Shown: in pieces, positions 13,413 to 61,462 of the stretch | Layout of the letters: the number at the start of each line of letters is the position of its first letter | Numbering within the stretch: the stretch's first letter is position 1 | NCBI RefSeq assembly: GCF_921293095.1 | Contig: NC_060252.1 | Coordinates: forward strand, 5,270,001-5,334,000 | Length of the DNA stretch: 64,000 nt | From: Ischnura elegans | Lineage: Eukaryota; Arthropoda; Insecta; Odonata; Coenagrionidae | Direction of reading: 5' to 3' | The notes under the pieces: generated by a model | Databases searched by the model: none | What the model was told of the DNA's origin: nothing | Seen by the model: only the letters and a program-made list of their open reading frames with translations | Program-made: the position numbers and the translations under genes

Positions 13413-14100
13413 GACAGAGACTACAACGACCGACTTCCAAGTACATATAACTAAAAATGGCTGGTCACGCTAAACGTGCTTCAAAAATCGATGTAAACTT
13501 TGGAGGTCTTCCGAGCCTTCTTTCAACAATTATTTCAAAAGTCAAACCATTTCTGTTCTTGAATTTCACACATCAAGTCGGCTCATAATTTAAGATTTTT
13601 TTATCCATTTCCAACCTAAAGACACCTTACGTCAACCCTCCATTAATTGACATCCTCCAGGTGTAATGATAGACTCTTTACAGAATTGTATATAAATATA
13701 ACCTTCGCCTTGGTCAAAGAAAACGGGAAAATGGAGGGTCATAGATAATTTTACACCTTAAATCTCTCGCGTAAGTGACTCCGGATGTGTAGTGGCACCT
13801 TGATTGAGTGCTCCACTACATGCTACATGGAAAACGGCACTTTGAGGGAGTTAAGTGTTGGGGGAGACGAGATCTTCCTTCCCCCGAAATAGACATTAAA
13901 TCAAGAATCACATTCTGAATTAGTGCCTATGATTGGCGAGGGCATTGCCGCTGAATGCAGTCGTCATCGCCTGTGAGGGCTCGAAGCGGAAATTTTGTCA
14001 CTATTGACTGCATTGGCGGATAAACATGGGAGTGTTCTTCTTACCATCCTTGGGGGGGGGGGGGGGGGCGCCCGCATTACCAAAAATTGCAGAACCACAA
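13413..14100. other. No recognised gene
   Basis: A G16-G18 homopolymer lies near 14051-14068. No gene or repeat recognised elsewhere in this stretch. Confidence 0.4.
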
Positions 14101-14765
14101 TAGGGTGGTTTCCTATTATTTTTTTATTGCCTGAATCGAAAGATTATTACACCTGGAGTACGTATTTAACGCTTTTAGATTTTTAAATGACAATATCTAT
14201 TTTTCGCGATTAAATGAAAAGTGAAAATTTTCAAGCGCGCGAAAACGCGACGCTCAAGTATGAATGCCAGGAAATATCTCCGTACGTCGTATTTCTGGTT
14301 CCCCCTCCCGCCCGGTGAGGTGACCCTGAGGCGAGGCTTAGCGCTGATACGTCGCAGGCTGCCAGCGGGTAGCTGAGTACCTTGCTGAATGGTAGCGCTT
14401 GGCTTAAAAAAGGTTTATTAATACCTTATCAAACGAAGAAAACTTTCCGACCTTAGCCAGTTTTAATAGGTGATTATTAAGACATGTTTCCCTGAGCTCT
14501 GTGCCTCATGCATGCATTGGTAACCTCAGACGATGTATAACTCCTATCCTCTCGCGTAGAAACTAGGTCCCTGTGACGTCACGTGGAGTGGAATCGCATG
14601 GGCGCCAATCTGGCCTTTTTCAAATGAGGATAAAATATGACCCTTGCCATTCGTCTAAACCGGTATTTCAAAAACCAAATAATTTGTGTATTATGAATAC
14701 ACTAATGGTGGGTAACGAATCGCAATCAATGCCTTTCGTTTTCTTTGATGAAGGAAACTACCCTA
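14101..14765. mobile_element. TA-target MITE, copy A (about 665 bp)
   Basis: The ends are TA-GGGTGGTTTCC and GGAAACTACCC-TA, an inverted repeat beginning directly after a TA dinucleotide. Two further copies lie at 28686 and 45972, sharing internal blocks such as CTGAATCGAAAGATTATTAC, TTTCAAGCGCGC, GAGTACCTTGCTGAATGG and TGGTGGGTAACGAATCGC. TA target duplication points to the Tc1/mariner/pogo group. There is no transposase. Confidence 0.85.
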
Positions 14766-15005
14766 TTGTCACATTTTTATATCGTAAGATGACATTGCCT
14801 TGTATAAGTGTATAATTAGTTTAAATAAAAATTTCTAAAACTTTGCATGTGACTTGATAACTTTTTCATTTCGATAAAAATAAAGGCAGCTCAAGATATT
14901 TTTTGCGCCCCCTCCCACTGGAGTTTTTTCCGTCTGTTTCCGCTACTGGGCGCCTAGCCACGATGCTTCTGCTGAGGAGGGGGACCACTAGCCTAGGAGC
15001 ATACG
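14766..15005. other. Short unassigned spacer
   Basis: No feature is seen between the TA-target MITE and the following hAT MITE. Confidence 0.4.
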
Positions 15006-22434: not shown

Positions 22435-22934
22435 CCCAGTGAGAAATGGGTGGTGGAATCCACATGGAACCCACGTGGAATCCACGTTGAGTGGTGGATA
22501 TTTGGTGGTGGTGGATATTGAGTGGTTGGACCCACGTGGAATCCACGTTGATTGCAAGTGGATTTGTGGTGATTATCATAAAATGTTAAACAGAATTTCT
22601 AATTTGTGGAACTTAACTCTCTGGTGACATTGCGTCATTTATCATCCTGAAACCACGCTAGTTATGTGAAAATGTATCGCACATTCTATTTGTATATAAT
22701 TCGTGGAAAGGCCGCCATGAGAGCACATGAAAAATCGTATACACATATATAGAAGGTTTAGATATAGAGTGGTTGAGGTTTTAATGGTTTTAGGACAGCG
22801 CCAACTGCTGTTTTAATTTTTCCACCAAATTTCCACGTGGGTTCCACGTTGATTCCACGACCAAAAACACGTGGTATCCACGTTAATTCTCCACGTGGGT
22901 TCCACGTGGATTCCACCACCCATTTCTCACTGGG
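22435..22934. mobile_element. 500-bp element with 44-bp TIRs rich in CCACGTGG
   Basis: 22435-22478 (starting CCCAGTGAGAAATGGG) is the inverted copy of 22891-22934 with a single mismatch. CCACGTGG and CACGTTG words are repeated inside both ends. It has no coding capacity. CCC ends are compatible with piggyBac, but the flanks (TTT on the left, TTAC on the right) are not a clean TTAA, so the class stays open. Confidence 0.85.
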
Positions 22935-23590: not shown

Positions 23591-23595
23591 CAGCG

Positions 23596-26500
23596 CACAG
23601 TGGGCTAGAATCGAAAAAAGCTGGCCAAAACCTCAAAATCGATTTTTTTGAGCTAGGAAATTCAAACTTCGCATACACATTCTCAAATAAATTGTGCATA
23701 ACTACCCAGATTATTTTGGTCCTGTGTTTTCACTTTAACAATATATCTGAGGTCAAAGTTGAGCAAATTTAGCGAAAAACGACCACCCTCGATTTTTTCT
23801 GAAAATTGCCGATTTATCCTCGTGCAGTGGTTTTATAAATAGTTTTATCGACAAAACTGTTGTACCATCTTAATTGACACTTCTTATTCTTTCATTTGAA
23901 GGGTTTTTAAAGATTTGTTTCATCAATAACCATAGATACATAACAAAATGGCGGAGCCTGTTTTCAACCCATTTTTTTACATAAACGTAGAAAAAAAGTA
24001 GACATTGTCACCGGCTTACACTAAGTAACTTATATCATGTCGTTCTTTGAAGCTTCTATATTTTGAATCTAAAGTCAAACCTTGCACCAATTTGCAACCC
24101 CGAATTTTAAATAGTTTTTTCGAACGCACGGACGACTCCGGTTCTGGCCGGTAGCGGCGGAGAGTACGGCGACGCGGCAAGCGGGGTGATGCAATAAGGT
24201 CTCATTCACTTTTATATGTGGATAACAGACATATTAGTGACAGAAAATAATCACCAGAAATTAAAATTTATAAATATTGCTACGAATGACTCTCATTATG
24301 CAATCGCTGGGCACTGCAAGAGGTGCACTGAAAGGTTTCCTTCTTTGAGTGCATTCCATGGAAAATGGACTTAAATCGCGTGCTTAAAGTGTGGAAACGG
24401 ACTCTTTTACTAACTAATAAACGTTTTAACATTAACAGATAATATATTCCTTAAACGTGATGGAAAATGGCTCAATACAGTACTTCATTTTGCCGAATTT
24501 TTCCAAATCAAGTACTGTCTTGGTGCTTGAAGAGTTCATTATTCTTATCCAGTAAGGTTATTTAATTTATATTCTTGATTTAAAGCAATTAATAACTATT
24601 CCTTATGCAGCACAATTTACATGTTGCTCTAGTTTAGCCAGTGCAGATGGACGTCAATTCATTTTTTCAGGGTTGTATCGAGAGAACGACTAGGAGGAAA
24701 ACGAATGCAAAAGGAAGATACAGTGACCATCCTCTGAGGCAAGAAGAACTCTTGCTAAGTGGATAAAATGCAACCCCGAGTATTATGTTATGTCAGATTA
24801 AGAGGCCCTCTCACTAAGTAATTGTGTCCATGCAGCTCACAAAATTTCGGTGCAAGGGTCTTCGAAAATCTGAAATGCCAGGGATATAATATTAACCCCA
24901 GCGATGAGAGAGTGACGCGAGTATATGACTTCATTTACCCGAGTGAAATTATTGTAGCAGAGGTTATATAAGAAGTTTCCAAAAATGGTTCTGCATCTTT
25001 CTGCGACTCGAATCTTAACGTACATTTCCACAGATCCAAGTTTCGCGTCGCATATAAAGTGCACTTAAATTTGCAAACACGGCTTTGACAGCAGTTAGGA
25101 CATGCGCAATATAATCACACGTGGGAACGAGGGCCTATGTCTCATGAATTATTGCTCGTGAGCACCTTTGTGCATTCTTGTTTAAGTAAAAAATGCTGTT
25201 CCTTAGGCCAAGCATGAAACAGGCACGAGTATTCAAAAGTCATCACAATTATTCTAGATTTCCTCTCCAAATAATTTAATTTTCTCTCTCTCACACTGAC
25301 GCTTTAAATACAATTATGGTATGCCACCAACCGTACATAAGGTCTTCATTCAAGGAGCTGACATTGCAAAAGAGTCCATTCTTAATTGCGACAACTGACA
25401 GGGGAAGCGATATAGGCACGGTATAAGGACATGAGAAAGTTCCGTGAACGGTTGACTAGAAAAATGACACGAGTGGCCACAAATAGGGATTTACTCCGAA
25501 GACAACTCCTAATGTCATAACTGATAATGATAAAAATTACGCCAATTAAACTGGAAGATACACACAGCTTGCCGAAAAATGTAATGGATCTGTTTTTGAA
25601 AAAGGAAAACAATGCTTTAGCTCAGACAGTGAAAGTGAAAACAACACACAAAAAGACACAGAAAACATTTTTCGGCAAGCTGTGTGTTTCTTCCAGTTTA
25701 ATTGGCGTAATTTTTATCATTATCAGTTATGACATTAGGAGTTGTCTTCGGAGTAAATCCCTATTTGTGGCCACTCGTGTCATTTTTCTAGTCAACCGTT
25801 CACGGAACTTTCTCATGTCCTTATACCGTGCCTATATCGCTTCCCCTGTCAGTTGTCGCAATTAAGAATGGACTCTTTTGCAATGTCAGCTCCTTGAATG
25901 AAGACCTTATGTACGGTTGGTGGCATACCATAATTGTATTTAAAGCGTCAGTGTGAGAGAGAGAAAATTAAATTATTTGGAGAGGAAATCTAGAATAATT
26001 GTGATGACTTTTGAATACTCGTGCCTGTTTCATGCTTGGCCTAAGGAACAGCATTTTTTACTTAAACAAGAATGCACAAAGGTGCTCACGAGCAATAATT
26101 CATGAGACATAGGCCCTCGTTCCCACGTGTGATTATATTGCGCATGTCCTAACTGCTGTCAAAGCCGTGTTTGCAAATTTAAGTGCACTTTATATGCGAC
26201 GCGAAACTTGGATCTGTGGAAATGTACGTTAAGATTCGAGTCGCAGAAAGATGCAGAACCATTTTTGGAAACTTCTTATATAACCTCTGCTACAATAATT
26301 TCACTCGGGTAAATGAAGTCATATACTCGCGTCACTCTCTCATCGCTGGGGTTAATATTATATCCCTGGCATTTCAGATTTTCGAAGACCCTTGCACCGA
26401 AATTTTGTGAGCTGCATGGACACAATTACTTAGTGAGAGGGCCTCTTAATCTGACATAACATAATACTCGGGGTTGCATTTTATCCACTTAGCAAGAGTT

Positions 26501-27651
26501 CTTCTTGCCTCAGAGGATGGTCACTGTATCTTCCTTTTGCATTCGTTTTCCTCCTAGTCGTTCTCTCGATACAACCCTGAAAAAATGAATTGACGTCCAT
26601 CTGCACTGGCTAAACTAGAGCAACATGTAAATTGTGCTGCATAAGGAATAGTTATTAATTGCTTTAAATCAAGAATATAAATTAAATAACCTTACTGGAT
26701 AAGAATAATGAACTCTTCAAGCACCAAGACAGTACTTGATTTGGAAAAATTCGGCAAAATGAAGTACTGTATTGAGCCATTTTCCATCACGTTTAAGGAA
26801 TATATTATCTGTTAATGTTAAAACGTTTATTAGTTAGTAAAAGAGTCCGTTTCCACACTTTAAGCACGCGATTTAAGTCCATTTTCCATGGAATGCACTC
26901 AAAGAAGGAAACCTTTCAGTGCACCTCTTGCAGTGCCCAGCGATTGCATAATGAGAGTCATTCGTAGCAATATTTATAAATTTTAATTTCTGGTGATTAT
27001 TTTCTGTCACTAATATGTCTGTTATCCACATATAAAAGTGAATGAGACCTTATTGCATCACCCCGCTTGCCGCGTCGCCGTACTCTCCGCCGCTACCGGC
27101 CAGAACCGGAGTCGTCCGTGCGTTCGAAAAAACTATTTAAAATTCGGGGTTGCAAATTGGTGCAAGGTTTGACTTTAGATTCACAATATAGAAGCTTCAA
27201 AGAACGACATGATATAAGTTACTTAGTGTAAGCCGGTGACAATGTCTACTTTTTTTCTACGTTTATGTAAAAAAATGGGTTGAAAACAGGCTCCGCCATT
27301 TTGTTATGTATCTATGGTTATTGATGAAACAAATCTTTAAAAACCCTTCAAATGAAAGAATAAGAAGTGTCAATTAAGATGGTACAACAGTTTTGTCGAT
27401 AAAACTATTTATAAAACCACTGCACGAGGATAAATCGGCAATTTTCAGAAAAAATCGAGGGTGGTCGTTTTTCGCTAAATTTGCTCAACTTTGACCTCAG
27501 ATATATTGTTAAAGTGAAAACACAGGACCAAAATAATCTGGGTAGTTATGCACAATTTATTTGAGAATGTGTATGCGAAGTTTGAATTTCCTAGCTCAAA
27601 AAAATCGATTTTGAGGTTTTGGCCAGCTTTTTTCGATTCTAGCCCACTGTG
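23596..27651. mobile_element. 4.06-kb fold-back element with Transib-like termini
   Basis: The left arm (23596-25582) and right arm (25665-27651) are reverse complements over 1987 bp without net gaps: every paired landmark that I checked sums to 51247. I found only scattered mismatches (for example near 24074 and at the inner edge). The element starts CACAGTGGGCTAG and ends CTAGCCCACTGTG. CAGCG is duplicated at 23591-23595 and 27652-27656. CAC-A/T-A/G-TG termini with a 5-bp GC-rich target duplication are the known signature of Transib transposons, the group related to RAG1. No transposase is seen; the longest frame per arm is about 75 codons. It is best read as a non-autonomous fold-back member of Transib or a related group. 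Confidence 0.8.
25583..25664 (+). other. 82-bp unique centre of the fold-back element
   Basis: This is the only non-duplicated part of the element. It is A-rich (AAAGACACAGAAAA and similar) and lies inside a 112-codon frame at 25527-25865 that simply runs through the hairpin turn. No motif is recognised. Confidence 0.8.
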
Positions 27652-27656
27652 CAGCG

Positions 27657-28670: not shown

Positions 28671-28685
28671 ACTCATGAGCTATAA

Positions 28686-29338
28686 TAGGGTGGTTTCCTA
28701 TTATTTTTTTATTGCCTAAATCGAAAGATTATTACTCCTGGAGTACGTATTTCGCGCTTTTAGATTTTTAAATGACGATATCTATTTTTCGCGATTAAAT
28801 GAAAAGTGAAAATTTTCAAGCGCGCAAAAACGCGACGCGTAAGTAGGAAAGTCCGTGCGACGCATTTCTGGTTCCCCCTCTCTCCTTGTGAAGTGACCTT
28901 GATCGAGGCTCTGAGCGCTGATAGGGCGCAGGATGCTAGCGGATAGCTGAGTACCTTGCTGAATGGTAGCGCTTGGCTTAAAAAAGGTTTATTAATACCT
29001 TATCAAACGAAGGAAACTTTCCGAACTTAGGTATTTTTAATGTGTGATTATTAAGAGATGTTTCCCTGAGCTCTGTGCCTCACGCATGCATTAGTGATCT
29101 CGGACAATGTAAAACTCCTATCTACTCGTATAGAAACTAGGTCCCTTTGACGGCACGTGGAGTGGAATCGCATCGGCGCCAATCTGGACTTTTTCAAATA
29201 AGGTTAAAATTGACCATTGCCATTCGTCTAAACCGGGATTTCTAAAACCAAATAATTTTTGTATTATGAATACACTAATGGTGGGTAACGAATCGCAATC
29301 AATGCATTTCGTTTTGTTTGATGAAGGAAACTACCCTA
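28686..29338. mobile_element. TA-target MITE, copy B (653 bp)
   Basis: Ends TA-GGGTGGTTTCC and GGAAACTACCC-TA, with the same interior blocks as the copies at 14101 and 45972. It is somewhat closer to the 45972 copy in the segment with GTGTGATTATTAAGAGATG. Confidence 0.85.
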
Positions 29339-30159
29339 TTGCTCCCTCTTCAGCAACTCCCATCGCTTCGGCCAAACTTCAAGTCCCTGTAACATTGCAT
29401 GCATCAGCGGAGGATCCTTGTGCGGTGGAAATTATAGCTCATCTATCACTAATACTCAAGCGGATTGATTCTCTCGCATAAAATTCAGGGCTCTGAGGGC
29501 AGCAGTTCCTTTCCCTCGCACTTCGAAAACTTTTTAACCCGTCTGGATGCCCCTAAAAAGCATTCTTGAAGATCGAGGTGGCGGAGAGTAAAAAAACTGC
29601 CCCTCCCACCTTGAATATATAAAATTCTCACGCCTATGGCTAAGTCTGGGCTGAGCTCTACCCTCACCTACCCAAACCAAACTTCGGGTGCAATATCTAA
29701 GGGTGGGTGTAATTTTTTTATTAGAAATGCAATGAAGTTTGATTGACGTAAACAACTAAACCTAACCTTGCATTACTTTGCTCCTCCCTAAAGATATATT
29801 CCACGTAGGATGATAGCGACGATACCGCAAGGAGGGGAGGGGGCGGAGGAACGATGCATGAAATGCATTCCTCCCCCTCCCTCCCTTCCCTCATCACGCA
29901 TGCAACTGCAGTCATCCCCATCTGCTGGAAGGGGGAGCGCTCGATGCAAGGCTCTCTTAGGAATCACTCAGTCAAATGGGACCCGGGCAAAGACGCTCGA
30001 AAGTGCGAGGCGAATACTGCGACGCAAAAGCGTCCAAGTTGCTTGCTATCACTGAGTGCGATAGACCACGACGAATTCCGCTAGCAAGGAAGTCGGTCAC
30101 GGAGAGCAATTTCCCCGCTTCCCCAAACTCCCGGTATTAGTTGCACGTAAGCCCCTTCC
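29339..30159. other. No recognised gene
   Basis: At 29830-29895 a purine-rich then pyrimidine-rich stretch (GGAGGGGAGGGGGCGG, then CCTCCCCCTCCCTCCC) can form a loose hairpin. Overlapping open frames on both strands here reflect composition. Confidence 0.35.
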
Positions 30160-39142: not shown

Positions 39143-39655
39143 GTAAGTATCCCAAATGGTATAATATGCATCAAAAAAAAATGTACAATCATTCGGATAC
39201 AGTAAAAAGAGGATTAAAATTTAAAAAATAACCAACTGAAAACTAAGTTGAAACAGTAATTGGTTGTCGAGAACTCATATTGAGTATAACTGTATAACAG
39301 TTTATTATTCAAGCTTCGATTTCTAGAGCGACTTCAGTTTTAATGGTACTCGGCACGAGAAAATAGAAACAGTTACAATTTGATTCGGAAACTTAGCAGC
39401 AAATAGGTTCATGGGAAACACTTACGTTCACCCGCCCACCAAACGCAATTATATCACCCTCATAATGTGGTAAAATATAAACATAGAAACAACATTCATA
39501 AGAGCAAAAGAGAAATGTATTTTAAAACTTGATTCTTACCGATCTCCATATGAAGAAATTCCTGGTTCATTTTCTCACGTCCCATCTTCAGTTAACTGAT
39601 TGTCTCAATCTTCAGACGTCTTCATAGCTTCGGCCACGGAAAAATCCTGAGCCTA
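39143..39655. other. No recognised gene
   Basis: On the minus strand a short ATG frame (MGREKMNQEFLHMEI) ends at a GTAAGA donor near 39540, a possible tiny first exon. Support is weak. Confidence 0.3.
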
Positions 39656-41837
39656 GGGAGAGAGCGGGTTAGTACATACAAGATAAATAAATGACCCTTC
39701 CCCCAAGGAATAGCATACGCTCCACTACAATATACGGGAAGTCACCATTACACAAGGAGGAAATCACCACTTTTCCATCCAAGTGACACAGTTCCAATCC
39801 CATACACTGCAATGGTTTAAAGCGCATGCCAGACCTCGGCTCGACACAAAAAAAACTAAAATTAACGCAAGCTAAAAATCCTAGCCTTACTCGACGCAAT
39901 CATCACGGCCCTAAAGGCCCAAAAGCTAACCTAGTTTTGAAGCTGGGGTCCTCTTCACGTGAAGTTCTGATGACCTAATCCTGGGGAGAGAGGGAGAGAG
40001 TACATACAAGGAAAATAAATAACCCTTCCCCCAAGGAATAGCATACGCCCCACTACAATATACGGGAAGTCACCATGACACAAGGAGGAAATCACCACTT
40101 TTCCATCCAAGTGACACAGTTCCAATCCCATACACTGCAATGGTTTACAGCGCATGCCAGACCTCGGTTCGACACGAAAAAAACTAAAATTAACGCAAGC
40201 TAAAAATCCTAGCCTTAATCGACGCAATCATCACGGCCCTAAAGGCCCAAAAGCTAACCTAGTTTTGAAGCTGGGGTCCTCTTCACGTGAAGTTCTGATG
40301 ACCTAATCCTGGGGAGAGAGGGAGAGAGTACATACAAGGAAAATAAATAACCCTTCCCCCAAGGAATAGCATACGCCCCACTACAATATACGGGAAGTCA
40401 CCATGACACAAGGAGGAAATCACCACTTTTCCATCCAAGTGACACAGTTCCAATCCCATACACTGCAATGGTTTAAAGCGCATGCCAGACCTCGGCTCGA
40501 CACAAACAAAAACTAAAATTAACGCAAGCTAAAAATCCTAGCCTTACTCGACGCAATCATCACGGCCCTAAAGGCCCAAAAGCTAACCTAGTTTTGAAGC
40601 TGGGGTCCTCTTCACGTGAAGTTCTGATGACCTAATCCTGGGGAGAGAGGGAGAGAGTACATACAAGGAAAATAAATAACCCTTCCCCCAAGGAATAGCA
40701 TACGCCCCACTACAATATACGGGAAGTCACCATGACAAAGGAGGAAATCACCACTTTTCCATCCAAGTGACACAGTTCCAATCCCATACACTGCAATGGT
40801 TTACAGCGCATGCCAGACCTCGGCTCGACACAAAAAAAAACTAAAATTAACGCAAGCTAAAAATCCTAGCCTTACTCGACGCAATCATCACGGCCCTAAA
40901 GGCCCAAAAGCTAACCTAGTTTTGAAGCTGGGGTCCTCTTCACGTGAAGTTCTGATGACCTAATCCTGGGGAGAGAGGGAGAGAGTACATACAAGGAAAA
41001 TAAATAACCCTTCCCCCAAGGAATAGCATACGCCCCACTACAATATACGGGAAGTCACCATGACACAAGGAGGAAATCACCACTTTTCCATCCAAGTGAC
41101 ACAGTTCCAATCCCATACACTGCAATGGTTTACAGCGCATGCCAGACCTCGGCTCGACACAAAAAAAAACTAAAATTAACGCAAGCTAAAAATCCTAGCC
41201 TTACTCGACGCAATCATCACGGCCCTAAAGGCCCAAAAGCTAACCTAGTTTTGAAGCTGGGGTCCTCTTCACGTGAAGTTCTGATGACCTAATCCTGGGG
41301 AGAGAGGGAGAGAGTACATACAAGGAAAATAAATAACCCTTCCCCCAAGGAATAGCATACGCCCCACTACAATATACGGGAAGTCACCATGACACAAGGA
41401 GGAAATCACCACTTTTCCATCCAAGTGACACAGTTCCAATCCCATACACTGCAATGGTTTAAAGCGCATGCCAGACCTCGGCTCGACACAAACAAAAACT
41501 AAAATTAACGCAAGCTAAAAATCCTAGCCTTACTCGACGCAATCATCACGGCCCTAAAGGCCCAAAAGCTAACCTAGTTTTGAAGCTGGGGTCCTCTTCA
41601 CGTGAAGTTCTGATGACCTAATCCTGGGGAGAGAGGGAGAGAGTACATACAAGGAAAATAAATAACCCTTCCCCCAAGGAATAGCATACGCCCCACTACA
41701 ATATACGGGAAGTCACCATGACACAAGGAGGAAATCACCACTTTTCCATCCAAGTGACATAGTTCCAATCCCATACACTGCAATGGTTTACAGCGCCTGC
41801 CAGACCTCGGTTCGACACAAAAAAAACGAAAATTAAT
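39656..41837. repeat. Satellite array, 329-bp unit, 6.6 copies
   Basis: The word GAGAGAGGGAGAGAG or its equivalent starts at 39656, 39985, 40314, 40643, 40971, 41300 and 41629, giving a period of 328-329 bp. Units are nearly identical: AGCGCATGCC versus the same with small changes, AACTTCACGTGAAGAGG and GGCCCTAAAGGCCCAAAAG are present throughout. The first unit is the most diverged and the last is cut at about 41837. The minus-strand open frames of 66-90 codons that repeat once per unit follow from the sequence repetition, and I see no evidence that they are translated. Confidence 0.95.
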
Positions 41838-45859: not shown

Positions 45860-47060
45860 TCGCGTCCGGGATCAGCTTATACTCCGCTCCACAAAATTAT
45901 TGTTTACATCAAAAAGGCCATCAATAAAATCAAAGAGAAGGCTTCAAGAGACAATGTCCAAGGAGAAACAATAGGGTAGATTCCTATTATGTTTTATTGC
46001 TTAAATCGAAAGGTTATTACTCCTGGAAATATAAATTTCACACTTATAGATTTTTAAATGACGATATCTATTTTTTGCTATTAAATGAAAAGTGAAAAAT
46101 TTCAAGCGCGCGAAAACGCGTCGGCTAAGTAGGAATGCTGGGAAAACGCAGTGTGACGTATTTCTGGTTCAAGCTGTCGCCATGTGAGGTGATCTTGGGG
46201 CGAGGCTTTGAGCGCTGATACGACGCAGGCTGCTAGCAGGTAGCAGAGTACCCTGCTCGCAGGTAGCGCTTGTCTTAAATAAGGATTATTATTCCCCTAT
46301 CAAACGAAGGAAACTTTCCGAACTTAGGTATTTTTAATGTGTGATTATTAAGAGATGTTTCCCTGAGCTCTGTGCCTCATGCATGCATTAGTGATCTCGG
46401 ACAATGTAAAACTCCTATCTACTCGTATAGAAACTAGGTCCCTTTGACGGCACGTGGAGTGGAATCGCATCGGCGCCAATCTGGACTTTTTCAAATAAGT
46501 TTAAAATTGACCATTGCCATTCGTCTAAACAGGGATTTCTAAAACCAAATATTTTTTATATTATGAATACTCTAATGGTGGGTAACGAATCGCAATCAAT
46601 GCCTTTCGTTTTCTTTGATGAAGGAAACTACCCTATTAGTGGCAATGCTGCGATTTGATGATTTGCGGACGAAATAGAAGTCATAGCTGGGACAAAGAGG
46701 GAATTGAAGAAGACCAATAAGTATGGAAAGGATATTGGCAATAAATCAGCTACAAATCAATAAAAAGAAAACTAAGATATGAAGCAAAGGAGAAGGGACG
46801 AGAAAAAACATTTAAGTAGGTCAGCAAAAGATGGAAGAGCTGAAAAAGTGATGCTTCCTCAGAAGTTACCGAATCACAAGCGATGAGCGAAGGAAGAAAA
46901 AATAGCAGAATAGCGCAGGCGAAGCGGGCATTCTACGCACGAGTGAATCACCTTGCAGGCGTGGACGTTGTCAGAAGCAGATAGGCACTACGTCCCAGTG
47001 GAATTATTAGAAATTTGGAGTTGCAGAAGAATGATGAATATGAGATGCATAGAGTTTATA
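45860..47060 (+). pseudogene. Degenerate RTE-like reverse transcriptase, split by a MITE
   Basis: VYIKKAINKIKEKA (45905) and QGETI (45958) match the RT region just before the catalytic box of the better copy at 53406-54721. After the MITE, AMLRFDDL (46646) matches its MLRFADD box with one residue lost. SYRITSDERRKKK-like and AKRAF-like remnants follow near 46870-46930. Stops and frameshifts are numerous, so this copy is old and dead. Confidence 0.7.
45972..46635. mobile_element. TA-target MITE, copy C (664 bp), nested in the RTE remnant
   Basis: Ends TA-GGGTAGATTCC and GGAAACTACCC-TA. Joining the flanks across a single TA restores the RTE reading QGETI-LVAMLRF in frame, which supports TA as the target duplication and shows that the insertion post-dates the LINE. 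Confidence 0.9.
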
Positions 47061-48212: not shown

Positions 48213-49813
48213 TTAGGGTAAAGGGATGTGGGAAGGATGAAGGGCAAATTTAGGGGTTTTATGTTTGGGTTTATTCGGAATTACGCAATTCCAGAGATTC
48301 ATAATTAGCTCATTATTAGTTTTGCCAAGAGAGTATTGAAATTTGTCTATTGCAGATTTTAGGAATGTTAAAATAGGGGTAATTCGTAAGTCTTTTCGTA
48401 TTTGTCTATTACTAATAAACCATGGGGCTCCAATAATTTTCCTGACGATTTTATTTTCGCAAGATTGAATGCGTTTTAAATGGGTGGCGGCAGCATGGAG
48501 CCATACGGGAGAGGCATATGTTAAAAGCGGTTTGATGGATGAATTATAAAGCAGAAGTTTGGTTTTGAGCGCTAGCGGTGAATTAGACTTCAGCAACGGG
48601 AATAAGGCAGCGTATAATCCATTCGATTTCTTGATGCTTGATTGGATATGGTTGGCCCAGGTGAGTCGTTTATCAAGCAGAACGCCTAGGTATTTAGCCG
48701 TGGTGCATTTTGGGATGCGTTTGTTGCCGTAGTAGACATCGTGGCCATCGCCGGCTTTTGGTCTTCTGCTGAAGATGATGTGGTTGCATTTTTGTGCATT
48801 GACGCTAAGCTTCCATTCTGATGCCCAGTCCTCATAGGCATCCAGGTGATCTTGAAGTATATCAGCCGTTTTGTACGGATCGGATCCCTGGTCCAGCAGA
48901 GTGGTATCATCGGCGTATTGATACAAGCGGGTTTGAGGAAGGGAAGGGGTATCATTTACATATAGGTTAAATAGGATTGGGGAAAGGATTGCGCCTTGAG
49001 GGACACCGGAAGAAATGGGTTGGAAAAAGGATGCTGAGGAATTGATTTGGACAAAGAATGATCGGTCAGAGGTAAAAGATTGAATGATTTTGGTAAGGTA
49101 AGGAGGAAGGTTGAGGTCGGTAAGTTTTTTGATTAGGCCCAGGGTCCATACTCGATCGAAGGCAGCTTCAAGGTCGAGCAGCACACAGTGCGAGATTAGC
49201 CTGGAATTGAAGCCAGTAGTGATGTCTTCAACTAGTCGCAGCACTTGATGGGTTGTGGACGTGTTGTTCCGAAAGCCAGTTTGCTCGGGTCGCAAAATAT
49301 TATTGTCATGAACGAAGTTGCGCAGACGGATGTGAATAATTGATTCGAATAGTTTGGAGAAAGTATTTAGTAAGCTAATCGGGCGGTATGAGGACGGTTG
49401 GGAAACCGGTTTATTGGCTTTTGGAATCATGATAACTTTTGCCAATTTCCATGCGGTTGGAAAATATGAAATTTTAAGTAAACTATTGAAGAGCCGGGCC
49501 AAAATTTTAAAGATGGGATTTGGAAGGTTGCGCAATAGGCGGTTACTGATGCCGTCAGGGCCGGGCGTTGATTTCCTCTTCAGCTGCTTGATGATGGCGA
49601 TGATTTCCGCTGGTGTAGTAGAATCAGGTTCCGAAATCGGGCAATGGAGTAAACTGAGCCAAGTTTCGCAGCATTCATCTTCGCGCGGTGACGGGAGATC
49701 ATTGCAAAAACGTTTTTCAAGTAGTTCAGCGAAAATTTGCGCTTTTTCTTCGTTTGTAACTGCCAATCCCGAGGAAGTTTTGAGAGCAGGCGTTTGACGG
49801 CGGGTTTTTTTTT
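48213..49813 (-). CDS. Jockey-type ORF2, reverse transcriptase part (after one frameshift)
   Basis: In the frame one base away from the endonuclease part, the protein continues through AVTNEEKAQIFAELLEKRF, STPGPDGISNRLLRNL, YRPISLLNTFSKLFE, HCVLLDLEAAFDRVW, SSGVPQGAILSPILFNLYV and YQYADDTTLL (the YADD catalytic box), then CNHIIFSRRP and KYLGVLLDKRLTWANHI. It ends LHPSHIPLP at 48213. All RT boxes are present without stops. Taking one base out of the homopolymer would join it to the endonuclease frame, so either this copy is newly inactivated or the base call is wrong. Confidence 0.9.
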
Positions 49814-50898
49814 AGGGCTTTAGCTATGGCCCACATGGTACCATCTTCACCGCGGAGGGATTCGATTTTTGCATTCCAGTTATTTTTCCGTAGTTCTTTG
49901 ATGGCACGCTGAACCCTGTTTCTAAGGGCATTATAAAAGAGACGATCTTCTTGAAGTCTGCTACGCTGCCAGATCTTCCGGGCTGAATTTCGCTGCTGTA
50001 TCGTGGAAATGATGTGAGCTGGAAGGGCTTCGGGATGATTTTTAGGCGGAATTGCGTATGACGCATCATTGCCGGCATCTTGAATAATTGTAGTAAGTTT
50101 TTGGATGAATAAATTCGCTTCCTGGCGAATGGAGATTGGAAGCGCGTTGAGCAGGTGGCAATTATCTCCGACGAGGCAACTAAATTTATTGTAGTTAATG
50201 CCTCGTTTGGAATTAGATGAATTACGCGCCGGAAGACAGTTGACGGTGAAGATGACAGGAAGATGATCTGAAAGTTGATAGTCTATTGCTGCAGAAGGTC
50301 CAGTTGAGGGAATATTTAGTGAAAGTGCTATGTCGAGAATGTCTGAAGAACCGCGATGGGAATTATGCGATGGAGAATCAGGAGCAATTATTTGTAAATT
50401 GCGCCGTCGCTGTAGGCCGAGGAGCATTTTTCCAGCTTTGTTGGTGGTGTTGCAGCCCCAGTTGTGATGTTTGGCATTTGGATCTCCAGCGATGATTGTC
50501 CGCGCTTTCAAAAGGGAGTTTAAATGTTCAATATCTGCTTTTTTCGGCGGTTTCGGAGGACGGTAAGCCGACCATAGATGAATGTCGCCGAGCGTAGTGC
50601 GTATTTTCGCGCCGACGGCTTCGACGGAGGAAGTATTCGGGTTTGGAAGCTGAGAAGACGGAATGGACGATTTTATTAACAGGAGAATGCCGCCGCCTTG
50701 TGCATGAAGTCGGTCTAGACGGTATTGGGAGAAGCCAGGGAAGTACACAGTTTTCTTGTCGGTGAGCCAGGTTTCTTGGAGAAAAGCCGCGTCGCAGCAG
50801 TGCAATTTAATTAATTGTCGAAGCTCTTCTTGCTTTCTATGGATGCCGCAAACATTCCAGTGAAGAATCTTTAGTTGTTTGGCTGGGCGGTTAGCCAT
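49814..50898 (-). CDS. Jockey-type ORF2, N-terminal APE endonuclease part
   Basis: Starts at the ATG at 50898 inside the end of ORF1. Endonuclease landmarks are LKILHWNVCGIHRKQEELRQ (the N of the first box), FLQETWL (catalytic E), YRPPKPPKKADI, GDPNAKHHNWGC (the usual D-x-N box, here with P) and DYQLSDHLPVIF (the SDH box). A linker follows with RKIWQRSRLQEDRLFYNALR. The frame is lost at the T9 run 49805-49813. Past it, the endonuclease frame continues uselessly to 49726. This domain nicks target DNA to prime reverse transcription. Confidence 0.85.
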
Positions 50899-52537
50899 CG
50901 CTCATCAAAGAGAGTGCCATTTGAATAATTCCAGAAATAATAATTTCAGATTTAGGGGAATCAGAGGGAGTAAGGAGTTTTTTAATTAGACCAGATAACC
51001 AGGAAGTCAGTTTTTGTTTGAGGTTAGGTGTGAGGAATGACGAGAGGAGGGAAGAAATACCGTGGTCAGCTGACTGGGATGCAGGAGAGGTGGAAGGTTC
51101 ATTGGAAAGGGCAGGAGGAAGAGTCGGCGGCAGTAGCGATGGAAAGGAATCAGGGGTGAATTCTGGTTGGTTGGTTTGTTGACGGCGATTGCTTCGTAAT
51201 TTTTCTGCGAAACTAATGTAGTTAGGGCACTGTTTGAAGTTGGCGGGATGGTCGCCGGAACAGTTTGCGCATTTGGCGGGGGCCGGTTTGAAATGTTGAC
51301 ATTCTTTGTGGGAATGGTTTTCCCCGCAACGGACACAGCGTGGTTGCATTCCACAAGATTTGTATGTGTGGCCGTGCCTCTGACATCTGGTGCATTGCGG
51401 CGGTCCAGGGGAAGGCCGGAAGGTTTCTATTTTAACGCCAAGGCCGCAGAGATGAGTGATTTTCTTGAATTTTTCTTCATCGGCGGAAGATAGAAGCTTT
51501 AACTGAAATAACGGCAATAGTCGGGCAGGAAGTGGAGGCAGAGTTGAGTTGGGATTTTCTCGTAGTTGGCGTTCGCGGCGTTCTTTTTCTGACTTAAGGG
51601 GCCTAGTGGTTCTCAGCTGGACAATATCATCTACTTCCAATCCTTTCTCAAGAAGAGATTCTTTAATTTCTTCGGTGGAAGTTGCGGAGAGAAGGCCGCG
51701 GACAACTAGGAATGTCTTCTTGTCTTCAGCCAATTGGTAAGAGTAGTATTCCCATGATTTTTCATCGAAAAGTTTAACTAGAGCACGAAAGTCATCAGCA
51801 GATTGGCATTGGACGCGAATCTGTGAGCCGGTGGTGTTGCATACTGGTGGTTTACTAGTTGCAGCGATCATTGCGCGATTTTTTATGGACCATTGAGTTT
51901 GATCCTTGAGAAATATCGGAGGAATGCGATATTTTCGTGAGTTTTGGGGCGCCTGAGGGGCGATAGGTTGACGGAAGGTATTCGAAGGCTGAGGAAGATC
52001 AGCTTCAGACGATTGGCTACGACTACGGCTAGGATTACTGGCATTAGTGGGCTGCAGAGCGGAAGGTTTTGGAAGTAGGTCCTTAAGAGGGCCATTTTGG
52101 GAGACGGGATCTAGCGGAGCAAACCTGTTGCTGGTAGGCACTGGCGGTGGAGTTAGCGGAGGAGAATTAAGAATGAGTCTACGCTTTCTAGTATCAATAA
52201 AACCGTCCTGTGAAGCAGGGGCATCAGCGGATTGCAGTAATGGAAGCCCTAGGATGGCTCTTACATTAGGGTCTTGCAGTTTTTCTATTGGCAAAGTGAC
52301 TTGGACAGTAGTAGATGAATTAGAACTATTATGAACTGAATCTGCAGTGGGAATTACGCTAGGATTAGGAGGAGGAATTGAAGGAGAGGAAGCAATGCAT
52401 GGACTCACCGAGTCCGGAACGGGGTTGGTTGTGACGGGTTGGGGCGGGCTGGCCGGCGGTGATTCCGGTGAGGATCGGGTGTCCTCGTCTTCGGACCAAG
52501 GCCCTTGTGGCTCGGAATTTTGAGATTCCTCGTCCAT
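50891..52537 (-). CDS. Jockey-type ORF1 (gag-like RNA-binding protein), 548 aa
   Basis: I place the start at the ATG at 52537 (MDEESQNSEPQGPW), since the longer frame to 52594 begins only with GTG. The first 230 or so residues are proline- and serine-rich. A PRE_C2HC-type region follows (YSYQLAEDKKTFLVVRGLL, EIKESLLEKGLEVDDI), then three zinc knuckles: CTRCQRHGHTYKSC, CVRCGENHSHKEC and CANCSGDHPANFKQC. This order is typical of Jockey-clade ORF1 proteins, which bind the element RNA. The stop TAA at 50891-50893 lies inside the start of ORF2, an 8-nt overlap (ATGGCTAA). The frame is intact. Confidence 0.9.
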   Translation of the reverse strand: MDEESQNSEPQGPWSEDEDTRSSPESPPASPPQPVTTNPVPDSVSPCIASSPSIPPPNPSVIPTADSVHNSSNSSTTVQVTLPIEKLQDPNVRAILGLPLLQSADAPASQDGFIDTRKRRLILNSPPLTPPPVPTSNRFAPLDPVSQNGPLKDLLPKPSALQPTNASNPSRSRSQSSEADLPQPSNTFRQPIAPQAPQNSRKYRIPPIFLKDQTQWSIKNRAMIAATSKPPVCNTTGSQIRVQCQSADDFRALVKLFDEKSWEYYSYQLAEDKKTFLVVRGLLSATSTEEIKESLLEKGLEVDDIVQLRTTRPLKSEKERRERQLRENPNSTLPPLPARLLPLFQLKLLSSADEEKFKKITHLCGLGVKIETFRPSPGPPQCTRCQRHGHTYKSCGMQPRCVRCGENHSHKECQHFKPAPAKCANCSGDHPANFKQCPNYISFAEKLRSNRRQQTNQPEFTPDSFPSLLPPTLPPALSNEPSTSPASQSADHGISSLLSSFLTPNLKQKLTSWLSGLIKKLLTPSDSPKSEIIISGIIQMALSLMSDG

Positions 52538-52759
52538 CGCGCCGATTGGCGCGTTGCGTCTTGACTCTTTATTCGGTAAAATTTGTCGAAGCACAAGGTA
52601 AAAATATACTCGCGCGCGTAGGCACTAAGTAAAAAGCACGAAATTCGCGGCAACTGTCAGCAGAGCACTCTCTCCGCAATGGCGTCCGGCACAACCATTG
52701 CAATGGAGCGAATCTGATTACTCGTATTCTGACGTCAAAGGGTGTTCTTGTAGCGCGAA

Positions 52760-53405: not shown

Positions 53406-54721
53406 CATCATCATCATCATCATTGGTCAACAATCCTAGGATTGGTTTGACGCAGCTCTCCACTCTATTCTCCTTTCAGCTAATCTTTTCACACCTACGT
53501 ATTTCTTCTCTTTCCCATCTCTCTTCACTTGTTCCATATATTTTGTTCGAGGTCTTCCTTTTCCATTCTTACCTTCCACTTGTCCTTCGACGATTGTCTT
53601 CATCAGGCCATCATGTCTCCGGATGTGGCCTATAAGGTTGTTCCGTCTTCTTATTAAGGTTTTCATGAGGCTTCTCTTCTCTCCTACTCTTCTTAGGACT
53701 TCTTTGTTACTAACTCTGTCGATCCATTTGATTTTCATCATTCTTCTGTAGCACCACATTTCGAAGGCCTCTATCCTTGCTTTCTCCGCTGCGGTCATTG
53801 TCCATGCCTCACTTCCGTATAGGAGCATACTCCAGATGTAGGATCTTATAAATTGTTTCTTTACTTCCATACTTAAGTTTCCTGCTGTAAGCAGGTCTCT
53901 CTTTTGGTGGAATGCTCTCTTCGCCTGGGCTATTCTGCTGATAATTTCTTTCTTACTTCTCCCGTCACTAGTTATCTTGCTTCCCAAATAACAGAATTCA
54001 TCCACCTCTATCAGTTTTTGCTTCCCTATTTTAATGTTAGTCTTGACTTCTTCTCTTCTGCTGCATACTAAGATCTTGGTTTTCTTTGTGCTTATTTTCA
54101 GTTGATATCTACCCATTACCCTATCCATATTAACTAGAATATTTTTCAAATCCGTCTCTGTTTCTGCTATAACGGCTATGTCATCGGCAAATCTTAGCAT
54201 GCTAATTTTTTCTCCATGAATATTCACTCCCAATGCATTTTCTTTGATTTCATTAATGGCTTTCTCAATGTAAACGTTGAAAATTACGGGTGACAATGTA
54301 CAGCCTTGTCGCACTCCTTTCCTAATTCTTGCTTCTTCACAGCTGGGCCCTGATTTTATCACGGCTACTTGGTTTTTGTATAAACTGTGGATGATTCTTC
54401 TGTCATTATAAAGAACCCCAATTTCCTTTAGGATTCCAAGCATTGTGCTCCAATCCACGTTGTCAAATGCTTTCTCTAAGCCCACAAACGCAATGAACGT
54501 TGGCTTGTTCTTTTCCATTCTCTTCTCTATGAGCAGTCTTAGGGCCAATATTGCTTCTCTTGTGCCTTTGTTTTTTCTGAATCCAAATTGGTCCTCATCC
54601 AAGTACTCTTCTGCTTTTCGTTCTATTCTTCTATAGATGATCCTTGTCAGTATCTTCGACGCATGTGTAGTCAGGCTAATGGTCCTAAAATGTTCGCAGT
54701 TCTCCGCTCTTTTCTTCTTAG
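53406..54721 (-). mobile_element. 5'-truncated RTE-like LINE with target duplication
   Basis: GTACTTGTTAT flanks the copy at 53395-53405 and 54722-54732. On the minus strand the 3' end carries a TGA trinucleotide run (ATGATGATGATGATGATGA, 53404-53425), the kind of short simple repeat that ends many RTE elements in place of poly(A). The 5' end is cut inside the RT domain (RAENCEHFRTISLTTHASKI), a typical incomplete reverse transcription product. Confidence 0.9.
53436..54720 (-). pseudogene. RTE-like reverse transcriptase, C-terminal part, open throughout
   Basis: The frame is open from the truncation point to 53436. Boxes: DEDQFGFRKNKGTREAI, FVGLEKAFDNVDW (LEKAFD with the first catalytic D), RKGVRQGCTLSPVIFNVYI, MLRFADDIAVIAE (FADD box), KTKILVCSR and FCYLGSKITSDG. 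The C-terminal region has LLYGSEAWTMTAAEKARIEA, then RRMMKIKWIDRVSNKEVL and GKGRPRTKYMEQV, as in RTE-group proteins. The endonuclease and the start of RT are missing, so it is not functional although no stop interrupts it. That is consistent with a recent insertion. Confidence 0.9.
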
Positions 54722-54732
54722 GTACTTGTTAT

Positions 54733-60847: not shown

Positions 60848-61369
60848 TTATGTTGGGTCGTTCTGATTGGCGGAGAAAGAGTGCGCTTTTCCCGCCACTT
60901 TCAAAATCGGGTTCCATGCCTTACTTAAGTTGAAACCCTCGTCTCTGTTGAAGTTTTTCTTGGAGAGTCGTATTTCAATTGCCTCCTTGGTGAGGCGATC
61001 CCAGTAGCCGCTGGAGTGGCAGAGCATTTTGGTGTTTTCCCAGCGAATCGCGTGGTCGAGATTGATGGCGTGCTCCGCAACCGCGGATTTCGATGGTTGG
61101 CACAGTCGGAGATGACGCTTATGCTCTTTGATTCGGGTCTCGATCTTTCTTCCCGTTTCACCGATATACTCCTCACCACACTCGCATGGTATGCTGTAAA
61201 CACCAGGCAATTTCAGTCCTGCAGGGTCTTTGGCACGGACTAAGACTTGTCTTAGTTTTTTGTGAGGCAGATGCACTGTCCGTATGTTGTGTTTATGAAG
61301 AATGCGCGAAATCTTGCCGGATACCGTAGAGACGTACGGCAGGTATGCGTTGGCCACCGGTTTCCGCTC
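60848..61369 (-). pseudogene. GIY-YIG endonuclease region of a Penelope-like protein
   Basis: The frame passes ERKPVANAYLPYVSTVSG, KISRILHKHNIRTVHLPHKK, then LPGVYSIPCECGEEYIGETG and RKIETRIKEHKRHLRL, and ends AIEIRLSKKNFNRDEGFNLS, WNPIL. GVY and YIG give the name motif. The R of RIKEH and the E of AIEIRL are the expected catalytic and metal-binding positions. In Penelope-like elements this domain follows the RT and cuts target DNA. The stop is at 60848. Apparent starts near 61357 are meaningless because the frame is the tail of a longer protein. The domain itself shows no stops. Confidence 0.85.
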
Positions 61370-61462
61370 TTCTTCATGTGTCTTCCTTTTTCCTTCAAAG
61401 GACCCGAATCAAAGAGCATAAGCGTCATCTCCGACTGTGCCAACCATCGAAATCGGCGGTGA

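Follow-up and report, generated by a model that had tools for sequence, protein, structure and literature searches.

Transib transposons have termini with the consensus CAC-A/T-A/G-TG, and this group is the presumed source of the RAG1 recombinase core. The subject here is a 4056-bp fold-back element at positions 23596..27651 of a 64,000-nucleotide stretch of the damselfly Ischnura elegans (hereafter the window; NC_060252.1, contig C7 of the genome searched, positions 5270001-5334000). The element is probably a non-autonomous transposon of the Transib superfamily in which gap repair has put an inverted copy of the left half where the right half was.

Related Transposons

A described member of the superfamily, HzTransib, is 3518 bp long, has terminal inverted repeats (TIRs) that its describers call long, makes a 5-bp target duplication, and has a deduced transposase of 489 residues (PMC1852546). 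Hairpin-forming cut-and-paste cleavage is known for HzTransib (PMC6941560), and in Transib elements with symmetric TIRs a nonamer-like second motif has been reported at spacers of 20-22 bp (PMC8355894). The damselfly elements resemble HzTransib in their Transib transposase (the relic described below and the genome copies match PDB entry 6pqn), their 5-bp duplications, and their long TIRs. They differ in that the gene is decayed, the TIRs measure 792-825 bp, and the window copy is a half-palindrome; in addition, the HzTransib duplication GCTCG does not fit the CNNNG pattern of the damselfly family (PMC1852546). Non-autonomous Transib derivatives also occur as miniature inverted-repeat transposable elements (MITEs), and those of insects in iMITEdb average ~482 bp and form the smallest class by bases, with 0.19 Mb over 98 insects (PMC5199201). 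The damselfly family, by contrast, has copies of ~3.3 kb and more than 1000 exact ends in one genome. TIRs that start with CAC, together with 5-bp duplications, are likewise found in the RAG1-RAG2-like (RAGL) transposons, including ProtoRAG (PMC7204232). These carry RAG1L and RAG2L, whereas the relic in the window matched HzTransib only.

With respect to architecture, the nearest parallel is Galileo, a fold-back-like transposon of Drosophila in the P superfamily, which has a P-type transposase and longer target duplications; the window element has a Transib relic and a 5-bp duplication, and does not belong there. Galileo TIRs grow by taking up internal sequence, inverted, from either side, TIR-only derivatives exist, and its describers suggest that recombination and conversion are drawn to long TIRs (PMC3573991, PMC4168063). 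The damselfly elements share the extension of long TIRs by inverted internal sequence and the TIR-only derivatives, but the longest TIR in PMC3573991 is 1260 bp, vs. 1987 bp in the window element, whose arms take in most of the recognisable transposase relic. In a literature search by titles and the openings of abstracts, which left most subscription papers and Repbase outside its reach, no description of the damselfly family was found.

Structure of the Fold-Back Element

A first-pass annotation of the window had described a 4.06-kb fold-back with 1987-bp arms, an 82-bp centre, CACAGTG ends, and CAGCG outside both ends, all of which were confirmed. The range that it gave, 23591..27656, does hold the fold-back and also includes the two target duplications (CAGCG, 5 bp each, at 23591..23595 and 27652..27656), so that the element itself is 23596-27651. 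The left arm (23596..25582, plus strand, 1987 bp) corresponds to positions 1-1964 of a standard copy of the family, L043. The right arm (25665..27651, minus strand) is an inverted left arm with 2 mismatches and matches L043 from 1964 back to 1. The mismatches lie at the pairs 24063/27184 and 25559/25688, and a repeat finder gives the same inverted pair as 2004-nt arms. The outer parts of the arms, 23596..24420 (plus strand) and 26827..27651 (minus strand), are already TIR in standard copies, and the terminal heptamer CACAGTG occupies 23596..23602 on the plus strand and 27645..27651 on the minus strand. In the centre, a single-copy loop (25583..25638, plus strand) extends the left half in the way seen in standard copies, and a 26-bp filler lies at the inversion joint (25639..25664; 19 bp if family sequence is taken to reach, by a weak match, to 25645). 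With arm sequence making up 3974 of its 4056 bases, the element is of the fold-back type by structure, having very long TIRs that form most of its length.

When the window was searched with 18 bases of the element end, allowing up to 3 mismatches, both element ends and nothing else were found, where 0.02 matches would be expected. The window holds 16 starts of the form CAC[AT][AG]TG and 17 inverse ends, and the palindrome is the sole inverted pair of these, 100-8000 bp apart, with equal 5-bp flanks. From these end counts and the flank pairing, a chance origin of the palindrome is excluded. It could also be an artefact, produced by chimerism in a read or by collapse of a repeat. Artefacts of this class, long palindromes, are common, and the joint was seen in the window copy alone among the 40 of 327 candidates scored. 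However, the 300 bp outside each duplication have no inverted similarity beyond that of shuffles (82/200 as high), and such differing, non-palindromic flanks argue against a palindrome made during reading or assembly. Moreover, the palindrome ends exactly at the family termini with an equal 5-bp duplication, its arms differ at 2 sites, a fold-back of opposite polarity with the same architecture exists elsewhere in the genome, and the assembly (ioIscEleg1.1; 1,723 Mb, 110 scaffolds) was built from PacBio HiFi reads (PMC9975421). An artefact is accordingly very improbable.

Transposase Relic in the Arms

A decayed transposase C-terminus, the only recognisable part of the gene, sits in the inner part of each arm. 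In the left arm it consists of a frame-2 segment at 25300..25395 (beginning RFKYNYGMPPTVHKVFIQGADIAKESIL) and a frame-1 segment at 25389..25556, both on the plus strand, and the latter is interrupted by TAG (25413-25415) and TAA (25518-25520). By symmetry, the right arm carries their mirrors on the minus strand, at 25691..25858 for frame 1 and 25852..25947 for frame 2. In a comparison with PDB chains, the frame-1 segment matched 6pqn_A, a DNA-mediated transposase, with an E-value of 1.5e-5, and the whole relic frame, with X at the stops, matched only this chain (E-value 1.5e-4). The frame-2 segment precedes it and matches 6pqn at 59-122 (with an approximate query sequence); frame 2 and the third frame, searched whole, gave no 6pqn match. 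We take PDB 6pqn to be the HzTransib (Helicoverpa zea Transib) transposase. The TAG codon aligns with the last Glu of EEASEARNK in the solved chain. E436 is named as catalytic in PMC6941560, and the alignment suggests that the Glu replaced by TAG is probably this residue.

The first-pass annotation had proposed a non-autonomous member of the Transib group or of a related RAG-like group. The relic, the 5-bp GC-rich duplications, and the CAC-A/T-A/G-TG termini all agree with Transib, and the decayed gene agrees with a non-autonomous element. The RAG-like option, namely a RAGL/ProtoRAG derivative, would account for the termini and the duplications as well. Pfam had no RAG2L match in the six arm frames, but a decayed non-autonomous copy could have lost that gene. 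RAG1 chains are present in PDB, yet none was matched by the relic at E-values up to 10, and the 150 scored genome matches to the HzTransib fragment are 57-67% identical to it. A RAGL origin is thus scarcely credible.

In other searches, nothing was found in the window by Rfam at gathering scores, nor in viral contigs with the HzTransib fragment and 20 bases of the element end. The HzTransib fragment in tblastn at E-values up to 10 gave five short pieces (E-values 0.002-0.032) in five of the loci fetched from the genome and none in the window. A single weak Pfam row for the arm frames, DUF5702 (E-value 0.14), was taken as chance.

The Family across the Genome

In the genome searched (1,722,721,009 bases in 110 contigs), the first 100 bases of the element had 1927 candidate places. 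The 40 that were scored, two of which are the window's own ends, were all at least 98% identical. Thirty-six stretches were fetched with a query that included CAGCG, which biases the sample to that flank: 32 have both ends, 3 have one end, and one (L012) is without the first 147 bases at one end. CACAGTG stands at both ends in 32/32 paired copies, partly by construction, since copies were picked by end match. Identical 5-bp flanks are present in 31/32, in six kinds when reverse complements are merged (CAGCG 15, CGACG 5, CGCCG 4, CACCG 3, CATCG 3, and CGTTC 1). Copies with constant ends and differing duplications, which the first-pass annotation had named as a check, do therefore exist.

A standard copy is ~3.3 kb long and has TIRs of 792-825 bp on either side of a ~1.7-kb single-copy middle that holds the transposase relic. 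Lengths of 3.2-3.4 kb are found in 27 of the 32 paired copies, and the others measure 1292, 1490, 2576, 2717, and 5252 bp. The shortest (L013) is a TIR-only form with CGGCG on both sides. The longest (L036, 1345-6596 of the fetched stretch) carries, between family positions 576 and 1012, ~2.4 kb that match nothing in the family. The unusually long TIRs noted in the first-pass annotation are hence real in the window copy (1987 bp) and are not the family form. These observations support the palindrome being a rare derivative, and not the ordinary form, of a family with 792-825-bp TIRs.

An exact search of the genome for the 18-base end gives 1101 occurrences (560 + 541), against 0 for a reversed-pattern control. 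CNNNG precedes 929 of these ends (469 + 460), where equal base frequencies would give 1/16. The lesions in the relic are equally widespread: the TAG at 25413 is present in 27/27 standard copies, the TAA at 25518 in 26/27, and the frameshift spacing in 26/27. Among the 150 of 2954 candidates scored for the relic, nearly all begin at the frameshift and have stops inside, and five relatives run through the frameshift in one frame with stops still present. As the stops and the frameshift are common to nearly all copies, the family must have been amplified after the death of its gene and must move in trans. The damselfly family is thus a large non-autonomous Transib family with CACAGTG ends, mostly CNNNG 5-bp duplications, and a decayed Transib gene.

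Homogenisation of the Terminal Inverted Repeats

TIR divergence was compared over 775 positions in the 27 standard copies. (A version of 815 bases, which overran the 792-bp TIR of some copies and gave 1.0% within, 3.4% between, and the own partner nearest or tied in 14/27, was not used.) The left and right TIR of a copy differ by a mean of 0.22% (0-8 mismatches), vs. 2.7% for TIRs of different copies, and the own partner is strictly the nearest TIR in 27/27 copies. Alleles private to single copies are shared by both TIRs in 99 cases and confined to one TIR in 25. These data show that the two TIRs of each standard copy are homogenised. Since the same private base would hardly arise on both TIRs by independent mutation, copying between TIRs must recur. 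Such conversion could be routine at transposition or repair, so that the two ends of each copy, which are like recombination signal sequences (RSS-like), would co-evolve as a unit, and fold-backs of both polarities would be overshoot products; we put this forward tentatively.

Joints and a Second Fold-Back

In local alignments to standard copies, from which the joint was read, the window copy tracks the standard copies from its left end to 25638, the first 56 centre bases included. This is followed by the 26 filler bases, after which the sequence runs in reverse, starting at element position 1987 and ending at the left terminus. As standard copies continue through most of the spacer, it is read as left-half continuation plus filler. 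A derivation of the spacer from an inverted piece of the TIR subterminus was rejected (score 27 vs. a shuffle maximum of 33, with 3/200 shuffles as high). At both arm mismatches the derived base is on the left arm, and the 27 other copies carry the right-arm base.

A second fold-back, of opposite polarity, is found at C4:95232020-95235106 (L053-L055; 3087 bp), where the two ends and the centre were read. It consists of inverted right halves, joined between standard-copy positions 1847 and 1687 with a 160-bp loop, and has CACTG on both sides. No long homology is present at the joint of either fold-back. This right-half palindrome suggests that the process recurs.

Alternatively, the window palindrome could be one of a subfamily of fold-backs that propagate by jumping whole. 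Its ends are intact and its target duplication is clean, and a Transib transposase with cleavage at CACAGTG ends and insertion at a 5-bp stagger should still be able to mobilise it in trans. Derivatives consisting of TIRs, such as L013, also exist. Nevertheless, when a 282-base query covering the centre was run and 40 of 327 candidates were scored, the sole match to the whole query was the window's own copy, giving no second copy of the joint, and 0/23 end pairs, taken from the first 100 of the 929 ends, span 4056 bp. Propagation as a unit is unlikely.

Transib Genes and a Candidate Helper

The HzTransib fragment has 3194 candidate places in the I. elegans genome. Among the 150 scored, long Transib open frames of 585, 517, and 385 codons were found. 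Several Transib transposase C-termini recur with identical scores across many loci, a pattern suggesting that two or more Transib families have been active recently.

The 585-codon frame is 64% identical to the HzTransib fragment. Its 3' side has ~0.5 kb of AT-rich sequence followed by CACTGTG and CGGCG. A 16-base pattern consisting of CGGCG and CACAGTGGGGC occurs 124 times in the genome (control, 0). The opposite end of this element is one of these occurrences (C8:105839681-105839696, in the orientation expected), so that the element spans C8:105835168-105839691 (4524 bp) with CACAGTGGGGC ends and CGGCG on both sides. The first-pass annotation had named an autonomous relative sharing the family's ends as support for its reading. 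The C8 element supplies the 585-codon Transib frame, but the likeness of its end beyond chance is confined to the outer 9 bases, CACAGTGGG. It shows that a Transib with an open frame, this heptamer, and this kind of duplication is present, and is a possible candidate for the kind of helper that could act on the family.

Proposed Origin of the Palindrome

The half-palindrome could have formed as follows. An ordinary family copy would have been broken or excised. While the gap was being repaired, one end would have left its own TIR and switched to the opposite TIR of the template, which has the same sequence in inverted orientation. Copying would then have run on beyond the TIR and through the left half towards the interior, and end joining, with filler added, would have linked the copied strand to the other end. 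A stray that stopped within the TIR would give homogenised TIRs, and one that copied further inward would give a half-palindrome. The end and the target duplication would be kept because the TIR terminus is kept. The hairpin chemistry of the transposase was set aside as a direct maker of the palindrome, as the HzTransib/RAG hairpin forms on the flanking DNA rather than on the end of the element (PMC6941560).

Microhomology-mediated template switching at a replication fork, with no transposase cut, is a possible, if rather doubtful, substitute for excision-gap repair. It would fit the filler at the joint and the lack of long homology at either fold-back joint. The recurrent TIR homogenisation fits frequent repair inside the element, though not uniquely, while the preserved ends fit both accounts and every result here is compatible with template switching.

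Several observations weigh against a Transib half-palindrome made by gap repair. The repair steps are read from the joints only, where fork template switching would leave the same trace, and a template for the filler was searched for and not found. Second, 172/1101 exact ends are without a preceding CNNNG, and one paired copy, the TIR-rich derivative L018 (5107-6596, 1490 bp), has flanks that are unequal, CAGCG on one side and its reverse complement, CGCTG, on the other. Third, Pfam gave no Transib match in six frames of the arm. The nonamer-like GCCAAAACC inward of the left heptamer (spacer 21 nt, 7/9) is weak, as its chance is ~1% and the spacer range was picked after looking, and the C8 element end has no nonamer-like match. 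Finally, inward of CACAGTGGG, the alignment with the C8 end is no better than shuffles (434/5000 as high), and an autonomous element with the family's full TIR was not found. We still regard gap repair of a non-autonomous Transib copy as the probable origin.

Other Features of the Window

The remainder of the window holds further repeats. On the minus strand, a non-LTR (long terminal repeat) retrotransposon at 48213-52624 has three long neighbouring frames (one for a reverse transcriptase, one for an endonuclease, and a third whose match to PRE_C2HC is below threshold), and a second reverse transcriptase frame of 430 codons at 53436-54728 apparently represents another non-LTR type. Also on the minus strand, a GIY-YIG endonuclease-like frame (60848-61408) lies between pieces of a decayed non-LTR element, where 61080-61139 and 61401-61460 form a 60-bp inverted repeat; the frame is presumably a nested fragment of the Penelope type. 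At 39652-41836 a 329-bp unit forms a tandem array of 6.7 copies (98%). A dispersed repeat of ~0.67 kb is present three times, at 14092-14768, 28677-29341, and 45963-46638, with blocks 71-93% alike. A 500-bp stretch at 22435-22934 has 45-bp terminal inverted repeats, CCCAGTGAGAAATGGG, and no clear target duplication.

Implications

The analysis points to an abundance of Transib genes in I. elegans, including several with long open frames. With its homogenised long TIRs and its half-palindromes of both polarities, the damselfly family offers a RAG-related system in which ideas on how fold-back elements originate can be tested, and it suggests that TIR growth of the Galileo type is not peculiar to the P superfamily. 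If conversion between TIRs is indeed routine, long symmetric RSS-like arms would be a self-maintaining state of a RAG-related transposon.

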